DNA of 64,000 bases. It comes from Bifidobacterium asteroides. Its GTDB lineage: Bacteria > Actinomycetota > Actinomycetes > Actinomycetales > Bifidobacteriaceae. Within the stretch, counting starts at the first letter, position 1. Each line of letters starts with the position of its first letter. The notes beneath the pieces are model-generated. The model was not told where the DNA came from. It did no database searches and saw only the letters and a program-made list of their open reading frames with translations. The stretch is from the NCBI RefSeq assembly GCF_003202755.1, contig NZ_QGLK01000004.1:372001-436000 (forward strand), given 5' to 3'. The position numbers and the translations under genes were made by a program. This document shows, piece by piece, positions 17,334-21,116 of this stretch.

Positions 17334-20300
17334 ATGCATATTACGTTTCAGCATAAGTCCGCACGCGGCCGGTCGACAACTATGGTTGGTGTCCTGCTGG
17401 CTATCATCTTGCCCGCCAGTCTGATCATGGGCGTCTTTGCCACGGCTGACACTGCTCCCAGCGAATCCAGTGTGCCCGAGCCGACCATGCTGGGGCAGAC
17501 GGCTGCAGGCCAACCGGCGGACCCATCAGCCAATGCACCAACCCTGCCTGCCAGTCCGGCCGGCCCCAAGTCTCCGTTGCCCTCGCCTTCGCCCCTGGAC
17601 ACCGCGTCCCCCCTCACCAGCGCACAGCCCGCTCCCGACAAGCCCGGCGGCGCCGGCATCCAAAGCAGGACCGCCGACAGCCAGCCCCAGACACGCGCAG
17701 CCTACACCGTTGCCTTCAACGACCCCGACGGCAACACCAGCACGCCCTCCCAGAGCGTCCCCAGCGGCGGACAGGCCTCCAGGCCCAAGGACCCGAGCAG
17801 GGACGGCTACCTGTTCGACGGATGGTTCACCGGCAACACCGCCTACGACTTCACCCGGCCCGTCACCGGCAGCATCACCCTGACCGCCAAATGGACCAGG
17901 ATAACCAGCTCCTGGAGCCTCAAACCCGCCTCCGGGCCAGCAGAAGGAGGCACCCGGATCACCCTGTCCACGCCCACCACATCCGACATACGCTTCAACC
18001 ACATCGACACAGGACAAGACTTTGCCCTGGCCATAGGCTCCGACGGCAACCTCTACAGCTGGGGAACCGTAAGAGCTCTGATCAACCTGGCAGACGGCAG
18101 GCCAGGCATCGTTACCCCGCCGACAGGCGTCCGCTTCACCCAGACCAGCGGAGGACTAGGCTTCTCCCTGGGCTTGGGCTCGGACGGCAACCTCTACAGC
18201 TGGGGAAACGATCAGAACGGCGAAATGGGACAAGGCACCGTAACATCCTCGTATATACCAGGCAAAGTAATCATGCCAGCAGACGGCACGAAATTCACCC
18301 AGATCAGCGCAGGATTCGTATATTCCTTGGCCATTGGCTCGGACGGCAACCTCTACAGCTGGGGAAACAACCAGTACGGCCAGCTGGGCAACGGCACTGC
18401 CGACGACATCACTGACAATACTATTCGTCATGGCACGCCAAGCAAGGTGAGCCTGCCGACAGGGGTCCCAAAATTCACCCAGGTCAGCGCAGGCAATAGC
18501 CATTCCCTGGCACTGGACTCGGACGGCAACCTCTACAGCTGGGGATACAACGGTACCGGGCAACTGGGCATAGGCGGTACTGATTCTAATCAACATAACA
18601 CGCCAAGCAAGGGGTCCATGCCGGCAGACGGCACGAAGTTCACCCAGATCAGCGCAGGAGACTATCATTCCCTGGCTCTGGGATCGGACGGCAACCTCTA
18701 CAGCTGGGGATACAACAGCAAAGGCCAGCTGGGACGCAGCACCAGCGGGGCGAAGGACGGCACGCCGCGCAAAGTGAACCTGCCTGCAGGCGTCAGAGGA
18801 TTCACCCAGGTCATCGCAGGCGGTGATCATTCCCTGGCCCTGGGATCGGACGGCAACCTCTACAGCTGGGGCGACAACAGCAAAGGCCAGCTGGGACGCA
18901 GCACCAGCGGCACGCAAGACGGCACGCCAGGCAAAGTGGCCATGCCGGCAGGCGTCACAATCACCCAAGCCAGCGCGCCCGGCATGTACGGTGGGGATTT
19001 CTCCCTGGCCTTGGGATCGGACGGCAACCTGTACAGCTGGGGAGACAACAGCAGCCGCCAGCTGGGACGCGACATCAGCGGCGACTTCGACTCCAATCCC
19101 GGCATGGTCGCCTTCCCTGAGAAGCCGAAGCCGACCGGCGTCAAGTTCGGCGGGGCAGCGGGCACGAGCCTGACGGACAACAAGGACGGCACTTGGAGCG
19201 TGACCACGCCCCGGCATGCAGGAGGCAAGACGGACGTGACCGTCTCCTGGAGCAGGAACGGCCGGCAGCCCGACGCGCACCTGGACTACACCTACATCAG
19301 CTCCTACACGGTCGCCTTCGACAGCGCCGGCGGCAAGCCGGCCCCAGGCCAGCAGCGGATCACCGAAGGCCAGCAGGCCACACGCCCGACCGCCAGCCCG
19401 GCCAAGGACGGTTTCCTGTTCGACGGCTGGTTCCTCAAGGATGCTGAGGGGGATTCCAAGGTGGCGTATGATTTCAGCCAGCCGGTCACCGCTGACATCA
19501 CCCTGGTCGCGCATTGGAGCCCCGCCAACACCGGCGGCTGGTCGATCAGCCCAAGCAAGGGCAACGTGATGGGCGGCCAGCAGACCACCATCACCCCGCC
19601 CAAGCTGAGCCGCGGCATCCGCTTCAACCAGATAAGCGCCAGCAGCTCAATAAGTGGCTTCTCCGTGGGCGTGGCCAGCGACGGGAACGCCTACGCCTGG
19701 GGCGACAACGAGTACGGCCAGCTGGGCCAGGATCCAGACAAGACGCCTACGCAGAAGACACCGGTCAGGATCCCCCTGCCGGACGGCGTGGATTCCGGGT
19801 TCACCTACACGCAGGCCGCGGCAGGCGGGAACCACGCGCTGGCCGTCGGCAGCGACGGCATCGTCTACAGCTGGGGCATCAACGATCGCGGGCAGCTCGG
19901 CAACGGCAGTAAGGACACACAACACCATTCCAAGCCGCTGCCCGTCAAGGGTGCGGACGGCCAGCCCTTCAAGGCCGTCCAGGTGAGCGCCGGCTACGCC
20001 GACTCGGCGGCCATCAGCCCGGATGGGCGCGTCTACACCTGGGGCAGCGAAAACAACAGTTACAACGTGTATAGCACGCCCAAACTGGCGCCGACCCTGG
20101 CCAAGGATCCCAACGGCTCCGGCCAGGGGCTGCACGCGGTCCAGGTCAGCGTCAACCGGGGCTTCATCATGGCCCTGGACGCGGACGGCAACGTATACAC
20201 GTGGGGGTACAACGACTACGGTCAGCTCGGCAACGGCAAAAGCACAGGAGAAGGCAGCACCACGTACGCCGCCGACCCTGCACGCGTGCCCGATCCCAAG

Positions 20301-21116
20301 GACACGAGCAAGGCCTTCAAAGCCACGCAGATCAGCGCCGGAGGCTACCACGCACTAACCATCAGCCAGGACGGCACAGCCTGGGCATGGGGGTACAACG
20401 GCTGGGGGCAGCTGGGGGACGGCACGATAACCAGCCGTCCCACGCCCAAACAGGTAGGAAACCCCACAAACTCCAGCCAGCCATTCCAAGTCGCGCAGAT
20501 CAGCACCGGTTGGGTCCACTCTTTGGCCATCGACAGGAGCGGCACAGCCTGGGCATGGGGGTACAACTACGATGGCCAGCTGGGCGACAACACCACCAAC
20601 TACAGGCACACCCCCACACGTGTATCGCCGCCCGCAGGCCAGGACAGCGCCGGCACCGGGCTCGCAACAGCACGAATCAGCGCAGGTTACTATCATTCCC
20701 TGGCCATCGGCCGTGACGGCAACACGTACAGCTGGGGAGACAACCAGTACGGCCAGCTCGGCAACGGGAGTCTGACGCAGAGCAGCACCCCGACCCAGGT
20801 GGCCCTCAACTCGCTGCTGATCACCGGTGTCAAGTTCGACCAGGCGACGGTCGGCTCCCTTCAGCAGAATTCTGACGGGTCCGTCTCGTTCGCCACGCCC
20901 GCCCATAATCCGGGTCTGACTGATGTGGTCGTGGACTGGAGCCTGGGCGGCGTCGGCCAGACCCCGGCGCACCTGGCCTACACCTATGAAGGCACCCTGC
21001 CCCTGACGGGCGGCAACGGCAGCATGGTCCTCCTGCTCGCCGCCGGGCTGCTCGCCGCAGCCGGCGCCGTCGCAGCCGGACGCCACCGGCGCGAAACCCA
21101 CGCCCTGCACGTCTAG
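17334..21116 (+). CDS. LPXTG-anchored surface protein with two RCC1 propellers, InlB-type repeats and split TIG-like domains
   Basis: A 1260-residue secreted protein. Residues 1-42 form a signal peptide (basic head, hydrophobic core from MVGVLLAIILP). Residues 43-122 are a Pro/Ala/Ser-rich linker. Two similar modules follow. Module 1: InlB B-type repeat at 123-187 (GYLFDGWF), a TIG-like first half at 194-216 (SLKPASGPAEGGTRITL), seven RCC1 blades at 217-590 marked by SDGNLYSWG, then a TIG-like second half at 600-654. Module 2: InlB repeat 657-728, first half 736-756, seven blades 760-1160, second half 1163-1218. Then LPLTG (1222-1226), a membrane segment and a basic tail, the sortase sorting signal. 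GGGAAGGG precedes the ATG. The likely role is adhesion or ligand binding at the cell wall; the ligand is unknown. No catalytic domain was seen. Confidence 0.88.
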   Translation: MHITFQHKSARGRSTTMVGVLLAIILPASLIMGVFATADTAPSESSVPEPTMLGQTAAGQPADPSANAPTLPASPAGPKSPLPSPSPLDTASPLTSAQPAPDKPGGAGIQSRTADSQPQTRAAYTVAFNDPDGNTSTPSQSVPSGGQASRPKDPSRDGYLFDGWFTGNTAYDFTRPVTGSITLTAKWTRITSSWSLKPASGPAEGGTRITLSTPTTSDIRFNHIDTGQDFALAIGSDGNLYSWGTVRALINLADGRPGIVTPPTGVRFTQTSGGLGFSLGLGSDGNLYSWGNDQNGEMGQGTVTSSYIPGKVIMPADGTKFTQISAGFVYSLAIGSDGNLYSWGNNQYGQLGNGTADDITDNTIRHGTPSKVSLPTGVPKFTQVSAGNSHSLALDSDGNLYSWGYNGTGQLGIGGTDSNQHNTPSKGSMPADGTKFTQISAGDYHSLALGSDGNLYSWGYNSKGQLGRSTSGAKDGTPRKVNLPAGVRGFTQVIAGGDHSLALGSDGNLYSWGDNSKGQLGRSTSGTQDGTPGKVAMPAGVTITQASAPGMYGGDFSLALGSDGNLYSWGDNSSRQLGRDISGDFDSNPGMVAFPEKPKPTGVKFGGAAGTSLTDNKDGTWSVTTPRHAGGKTDVTVSWSRNGRQPDAHLDYTYISSYTVAFDSAGGKPAPGQQRITEGQQATRPTASPAKDGFLFDGWFLKDAEGDSKVAYDFSQPVTADITLVAHWSPANTGGWSISPSKGNVMGGQQTTITPPKLSRGIRFNQISASSSISGFSVGVASDGNAYAWGDNEYGQLGQDPDKTPTQKTPVRIPLPDGVDSGFTYTQAAAGGNHALAVGSDGIVYSWGINDRGQLGNGSKDTQHHSKPLPVKGADGQPFKAVQVSAGYADSAAISPDGRVYTWGSENNSYNVYSTPKLAPTLAKDPNGSGQGLHAVQVSVNRGFIMALDADGNVYTWGYNDYGQLGNGKSTGEGSTTYAADPARVPDPKDTSKAFKATQISAGGYHALTISQDGTAWAWGYNGWGQLGDGTITSRPTPKQVGNPTNSSQPFQVAQISTGWVHSLAIDRSGTAWAWGYNYDGQLGDNTTNYRHTPTRVSPPAGQDSAGTGLATARISAGYYHSLAIGRDGNTYSWGDNQYGQLGNGSLTQSSTPTQVALNSLLITGVKFDQATVGSLQQNSDGSVSFATPAHNPGLTDVVVDWSLGGVGQTPAHLAYTYEGTLPLTGGNGSMVLLLAAGLLAAAGAVAAGRHRRETHALHV
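18045..19042 (+). repeat. Tandem RCC1-blade repeats visible at DNA level
   Basis: The 20-mer GGCAACCTCTACAGCTGGGG recurs at 18045, 18186, 18345, 18525, 18690 and 18852, and with one mismatch at 19023; spacing is 141-180 bases, all multiples of three. Flanking bases are also shared between neighbours, most strongly between the units at 18690 and 18852. The second propeller (19650-20800) repeats only at protein level. Confidence 0.9.

Follow-up and report, generated by a model that had tools for sequence, protein, structure and literature searches.

The question raised by the open reading frame (ORF) at 17334-21116 (+) of a 64,000-nucleotide window of the Bifidobacterium asteroides genome (contig NZ_QGLK01000004.1, positions 372,001 to 436,000 of the forward strand) is how its two RCC1 propellers are mounted in the encoded surface protein. 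Each propeller is preceded and followed by a short TIG-like piece, and the initial annotation had proposed that the two pieces are the halves of one immunoglobulin (Ig)-like domain, with the propeller leaving from a loop. The explanation that best accounts for the whole, to which a probability of approximately 0.75 is given, is that of a wall-anchored protein in which each propeller would sit in the B-C loop of a TIG domain, the two halves would form one sandwich, and the propellers would act as putative ligand-binding heads. The nested architecture, taken by itself and judged from the sequence analyses described below, is very probable. The order of the parts, the seven blades, the anchor signal and the coupling of the halves are read from the sequence, and from them we infer the three-dimensional fold. 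The features of the gene, with their coordinates in the window, are the following.

17334-17453, +, probable signal peptide, residues 1-40 (hydrophobic at approx. 17-36), read from the translation
17454-17702, +, Pro/Ser/Ala-rich linker, residues 41-123, read from the translation
17703-17894, +, InlB-type repeat 1 (Flg_new, PF09479), residues 124-187, from Pfam and our own profile
17913-17975, +, putative TIG domain 1, N-half (strands A, A', B), residues 194-214, from our own profile, with a match to Pfam TIG positions 5-21 when scanned alone
17976-19133, +, RCC1 propeller 1, seven blades, residues 215-600, from Pfam and the blade profile
19134-19295, +, putative TIG domain 1, C-half (strands C to G), residues 601-654, from our own profile, over the TIG cut-off only when joined to the N-half
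19305-19517, +, InlB-type repeat 2, residues 658-728, from Pfam and our own profile
19539-19604, +, putative TIG domain 2, N-half, residues 736-757, from our own profile, and from Pfam when joined
19605-20822, +, RCC1 propeller 2, seven blades, residues 758-1163, from Pfam and the blade profile
20823-20987, +, putative TIG domain 2, C-half, residues 1164-1218, from our own profile, with a match to Pfam TIG positions 35-84
20997-21113, +, LPLTG sorting signal (residues 1222-1226), hydrophobic stretch and charged tail, from Gram_pos_anchor and LPXTG_anchor

The single ORF of 1,260 residues starts with ATG and is free of internal stops. Pfam scans and in-house profiles agree on the order that had been proposed for it, namely two units, each made of an InlB repeat, a TIG N-half, seven RCC1 blades and a TIG C-half, with the LPLTG anchor last. 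The in-house profiles place the InlB repeat, the N-half and the C-half at residues 124-187, 194-227 and 601-654 of module 1, and at 658-728, 736-769 and 1164-1218 of module 2, the last 12 or so residues of the N-half spans overlapping the first blade. The residue numbers of the initial annotation hold to about one position (SLKPASG starts at 195 and VTVSWS ends at 640). In the Pfam scan, PF09479 scored 98.5 bits over two stretches, each ahead of a propeller, RCC1 (PF00415) 456.2 bits over 12 stretches, and PF25390 541.1 bits; the in-house blade profile found seven matches per module, that is seven RCC1 repeats per domain. The LPLTG signal, with its hydrophobic stretch and charged tail, gave 26.8 bits with Pfam Gram_pos_anchor (cut-off 20) and 16.5 bits with NCBIfam LPXTG_anchor (cut-off 15.9). 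Since phmmer matched UVR8 at 3.6e-50 and the same order is found at hundreds of places, the order of the modules is far beyond chance.

The nature of the TIG-like pieces was addressed by scanning them alone and joined in silico with the insert removed. When scanned alone, the N-half of module 1 matched positions 5-21 of Pfam TIG (PF01833); the match of the module 2 C-half spanned positions 35-84. Joined halves exceeded the TIG cut-off of 20.9 bits in three of five units (22.3, 26.8 and 24.2 bits), including both modules of the window protein (22.3 and 26.8 bits). A profile built from the three passing units was compared with the PDB, where the top matches, plexin-A1 (6.6e-4) and COE1 (0.0092), aligned across the joint. 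The list comprises 18 chains, and 13 of them are plexin, COE, MET or CAMTA1, which we take to carry IPT/TIG domains. The same N- and C-profiles, applied to the class-wide loci, also picked out 11 ORFs with a total of 30 contiguous N-C pairs, in which the halves are only 3-9 residues apart (matches to E 0.01). Two of these ORFs, L311 and L315, were scanned with Pfam and are TIG arrays, with 7 and 13 stretches in the fetched pieces. They belong to the same order and class as B. asteroides, and their long runs of intact TIG domains represent the empty form of the domain. From the contiguous pairs, and from the Pfam TIG arrays matched by the same profiles, it appears that an empty version of the domain exists and that the propeller takes the place of the short loop between strands B and C. 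Thus, with respect to the TIG/IPT domains of plexin, COE/EBF and MET, the likeness lies in the collinear match of the joined halves and in a B-E coupling (see below) that fits the fold, while the difference lies in the domain of approximately 390 residues found here between strands B and C, where the TIG arrays have 3-9.

How constantly the parts combine was determined on regions from 21 genomes of the same genus, counting the own genome, and from two that belong to another genus of the family, pooled with the other loci found in the searches; these regions were chosen by RCC1 homology, so that the counts tell how the parts combine and not how often RCC1 occurs without TIG. With only identical ORFs removed, 453 of 507 N-halves had a C-half. 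A recount by place in the genome, which leaves out contigs L026-L031 (17 N-halves), gave 441 N-halves: 405 are followed by a C-half, 22 run off the fetched piece, 11 end at a stop and three are followed by an InlB repeat. The 405 paired units are spread over 22 genomes, 21 of the genus and one (G064, with a single paired unit) elsewhere in the family; in the regions fetched from G108 and G110, which represent another genus of the family, blades were found and no paired unit. Exactly seven recognised blades are enclosed in 346 of the 405 units, and the distance between the halves ranges from 214 to 543 residues, with a median of 379. This shortest distance, along with the lack of any complete TIG domain called by Pfam in the native protein, also bears on the case of an intact TIG domain on each side of the propeller, which was not seen.

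The InlB repeat, which the initial annotation had made the partner of each module, does precede both modules of the window protein; it is not an obligatory partner, and it appears to behave as a spacer, since 57 of the 405 paired units open an ORF without a preceding InlB match. Some variation concerns the propeller itself. Seven paralogues of the own genome (three ORFs of L017, and L022, L023, L024 and L025) have approximately 300 residues between intact TIG halves in their first module, with shorter blades, and an ordinary propeller in the second. An unrelated guest between the halves was considered and rejected on the basis of a weak RCC1-like match to PF25390 (41.5 and 47.2 bits, cut-off 150) in the two that were scanned, and the insert is taken as a probable degenerate propeller. 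The C-termini also vary. Among the 169 closed ORFs with an N-half, the last 70 residues carry LPxTG in 43, LPxAG (including LPRAG and LPKAG) in 104 and LPLCG in one, with no LPxxG in 21, and two sortases might serve the two kinds of motif.

If the two halves form one domain, residues of one should covary with residues of the other. A mean-field direct coupling analysis was carried out on 389 distinct N+C units (effective number, 203), with gap-rich units dropped. The strongest of the 2,484 eight-residue bands between the halves was an antiparallel one joining N12-19 (GGTtVTIT, strand B) and C26-19 (GtWtVTTP, strand E), with a z value of 5.8; it was at the top in six of six 70% subsamples, and a band set beforehand, one residue off this one, scored 0.34 versus 0.585. 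When six-residue bands were taken over the whole matrix, B-E was again the strongest, and the F-G hairpin, which is expected in an Ig fold, emerged at z 4.3. Strands B and E share the ABED sheet in IPT domains, as stated in the part of the structural report drawn on here (PMC12051499). None of 60 permutations gave a band at the observed value, although permutation also lowers the baseline.

The same analysis bears on a different arrangement, in which the TIG domain would form between modules, from the C-half of module 1 and the N-half of module 2, and would enclose the InlB repeat rather than the propeller. These halves are indeed the nearer ones in sequence (residues 654 and 736), but the B-E coupling is absent from that pairing (220 pairs, z 1.05, rank 376 of 2,484); furthermore, 30 of the 169 closed ORFs have one module, and L301, described below, consists of one N-half, seven blades and one C-half, so that such an arrangement is hardly credible. 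A second control, in which the N-half of module 1 was set against the C-half of module 2 (174 pairs), gave z 0.58 and rank 660. With the same-module units cut to 182, the B-E band had z 3.6 on three occasions, with ranks 2, 2 and 1. The loss of the coupling when halves of different modules are paired supports the view that the halves of the same module belong together and provides indirect evidence that strand B of the N-half would be paired with strand E of the C-half in one sheet.

Several results weigh against the proposal that the halves make one TIG domain. In the native protein the Pfam TIG match is below the cut-off (17.5 versus 20.9 bits) and concerns the last C-half only; because of this sub-threshold match, the domain is classed as a TIG domain interrupted by an insert rather than as a regular Pfam TIG. 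Scanned alone, the C-half of module 1 gave no Pfam TIG match, and neither did two of the five joined units, which come from divergent paralogues. Joining the halves in the reversed order gave 20.7 bits as two stretches, just below the cut-off of 20.9. Only the first PDB match of the joined-half profile is below 0.001, and the remaining five of the 18 chains are Filamin-A, YcnI (twice), UipA and SIRP-gamma. In the coupling analysis, the best unrelated band of the second control reached z 4.1, above the 3.6 of B-E at n = 182, so that at this sample size only the constant position of the B-E band is telling. In a first run on 295 units B-E was among the best eight bands (3.2-3.9, depending on the setting), within the range of the best bands of 20 random pairings (2.6-4.7).

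These observations leave some room for pieces that fold apart, with the N-piece serving as a linker strand at the propeller mouth and the C-piece forming a separate, degenerate Ig domain, as the native protein without a TIG domain above the Pfam cut-off and the two joined units without a match might suggest. That solution is nevertheless judged improbable by taking into account the B-E coupling across the propeller, the C-half that accompanies 405 of 441 N-halves, and the matches of the same profiles, in register, to intact TIG arrays. The insertion of the propeller in the B-C loop of a single TIG domain is the most likely arrangement, and the initial proposal that the halves belong together gains from the joined-half matches, the pairing, the arrays and the coupling alike.

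The search in other bifidobacteria that the initial annotation had called for gave matches to module 1 in 22 of 27 genomes of the genus (E <= 1e-20) and in 40 of 189 of the family (E <= 1e-10), own genome included, both figures counting RCC1 homology and not the split TIG as such. The C-half profile matched 35 of the 394 genomes sampled from the class, the own genome among them. Among 19 loci outside the own genome (L301-L319), L301 and L303 consist of one TIG-half, seven blades and one TIG-half, and the others are contiguous TIG-type pairs or C-half matches. A Microbacterium hominis plasmid protein (L320) has the same plan if it is read from upstream of its annotated start; the N-halves of L303 and L320 were recognised by eye and not by profile, and none of L301, L303 and L320 has a TIG domain over the Pfam cut-off. 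At L320 (NZ_CP070347.1, 1357-3588, 'putative Ig domain-containing protein'), the open frame extends upstream through the first blade, the TIG N-half and a signal-like sequence, and the annotated start seems to be too far downstream. Across 74 loci outside Bifidobacterium, among the best 80 of 251 matches, the N-profile matched L032 only. L055 was tried as a split-TIG propeller and set aside, its weak C-profile match (0.01) having gone in a later profile scan. Thus, the nested unit probably occurs outside bifidobacteria, as judged from these few loci, and its InlB-spaced, duplicated, multi-copy form is a bifidobacterial elaboration.

The protein family as such is not new. The parts of two earlier reports consulted here describe 19 RCC1 proteins with a Listeria-Bacteroides repeat in B. 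asteroides PRL2011 (2,167,301 bp; Bottacini 2012, PMC3447821), and 7-24 RCC1 genes per genome in honeybee bifidobacteria, in which the Listeria-Bacteroides repeat precedes each RCC1 domain, the ends are LPxTG and the RCC1 repeats number seven on average (Ellegaard 2015, PMC4449606). In the genome that contains the window (2,167,340 bases, seven contigs), ORFs of three or more blades likewise occur at 19 places; they cover approximately 70 kb, and 12 frames lie in a tandem array at C1:516.8-569.9 kb. The window protein is therefore a member of the InlB-RCC1-LPXTG family of bee bifidobacteria already known from 2012 and 2015. As far as the cited parts of these reports go, it resembles the published proteins in the InlB repeat, the approximately seven repeats per domain, the two to four domains, the LPxTG end and the many tandem copies (19 in both genomes), and it differs in that the unit is read here as TIG-propeller-TIG and in that InlB can be lacking before the first unit. 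The word TIG does not occur in the main text of either report, and no split domain is named there. A search of open-licence PMC papers, by listing, found no description of a TIG-nested RCC1 propeller. Thus, of the initial suggestion that the architecture had not been described, the part concerning the mounting of the propeller in a split TIG domain seems to stand, and the part concerning the family does not.

In the main array of the own genome (G000), a partial frame of 494 residues and short remnants with stop codons, at approximately 529.4-531.2, 561.3 and 565.5 kb of C1, are signs of gene turnover. In two other genomes of the genus, G021 and G002, RCC1 ORFs that have at least three blades are found at a minimum of 37 and 33 places (approx. 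117 kb and 104 kb, respectively; loci L209-L219, L238 and L254-L274; L148-L155, L240-L253 and L298-L299), that is approximately 5% of each genome and above the 7-24 genes per genome of the 2015 report.

Pfam matched three of the five neighbouring ORFs scanned, all to common families (uracil-DNA glycosylase superfamily, ASCH domain, alanine dehydrogenase/transhydrogenase), and found no match in the other two. Reverse-strand ORFs within the gene, the longest of 452 residues, are taken as a probable mirror of its repetitive sequence. Scanning the flanks for promoters and terminators yielded no useful result.

As for the mechanism, the working unit would be a seven-bladed RCC1 propeller inserted between strands B and C of a TIG (IPT, Ig-like) domain. 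The two ends of a propeller lie side by side, so that one loop can carry it. The two TIG halves would fold as one sandwich, with strand B of the N-half next to strand E of the C-half, and the domain would close over both ends of the propeller, mounting the ring as a rigid head. InlB repeats would space the units, and sortase would attach the stack to peptidoglycan through LPLTG. With less certainty, one variable face of each head may bind a ligand, which could be another microbe, a glycoprotein or a glycan of host or pollen, and the divergence among the many copies may widen the binding range of the cell.

Consistent with such a face is the variability of the blades in 391 seven-blade units, which is highest at the two residues between AG and H in AG-xx-H (3.6 and 3.8 bits) and reaches 3.5 bits in WG-x-N-xx and the following loop; SDGN is lower, with a mean of 1.8. 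With alternating strands, the variable loops would be expected on one face and the SDGN loop on the opposite one, although the P-x-G-V turn of the conserved side has a fair variability of its own (mean, 2.6). Such a face would suit a putative adhesin or lectin, a role that is mildly favoured on the basis of the anchoring, the copy number and the loop variability; the window protein may likewise offer the two broad binding faces initially envisaged for it.

The main rival as regards function keeps the same architecture and makes the heads inhibitors of host or competitor enzymes. BLIP-II, a secreted RCC1-like propeller that binds beta-lactamase, provides a bacterial precedent for such a role. 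The BLIP-II paper is also reference 33 of the 2012 report (PMC3447821). Wall anchoring and copy number, by analogy only, favour adhesion instead, and an inhibitor role is considered rather unlikely. With the RCC1-like seven-bladed propellers of RCC1, UVR8 and the HERC2 domain the window protein shares the seven repeats, with strong matches, but it is bacterial, secreted, wall-anchored and framed by TIG halves. The Vibrio cholerae adhesins Bap1 and RbmC, according to the sections of PMC10102183 used here, are also secreted bacterial propellers that act in adhesion along with other beta domains; they differ in having eight blades, in belonging to another protein family and in a propeller that binds matrix polysaccharide, and in those sections no Ig nesting was found, unlike in the window protein.

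An insert of approximately 390 residues in an Ig-like fold of approximately 80 is unusual, and its recurrence at hundreds of places makes it a clear example of how a small domain accommodates a large guest. The boundary of the module is also corrected: a construct for structural or binding studies should begin with the TIG N-half and end with the C-half, since trimming to the RCC1 repeats would expose one half of an Ig sheet. It is tempting, though rather doubtful, to suppose that Actinobacteria use the B-C loop of TIG, the place of complementarity-determining region 1 in an antibody, as a standard socket for propellers, and that bee bifidobacteria have expanded it into a repertoire of variable receptors (at least 37 places and approximately 5% of the genome in one species) that would set what a strain is able to bind inside the host. 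The 2012 paper (PMC3447821), in the parts cited, states that this large surface family of bee bifidobacteria had been given no distinct function, and the nested unit would provide a handle on it.

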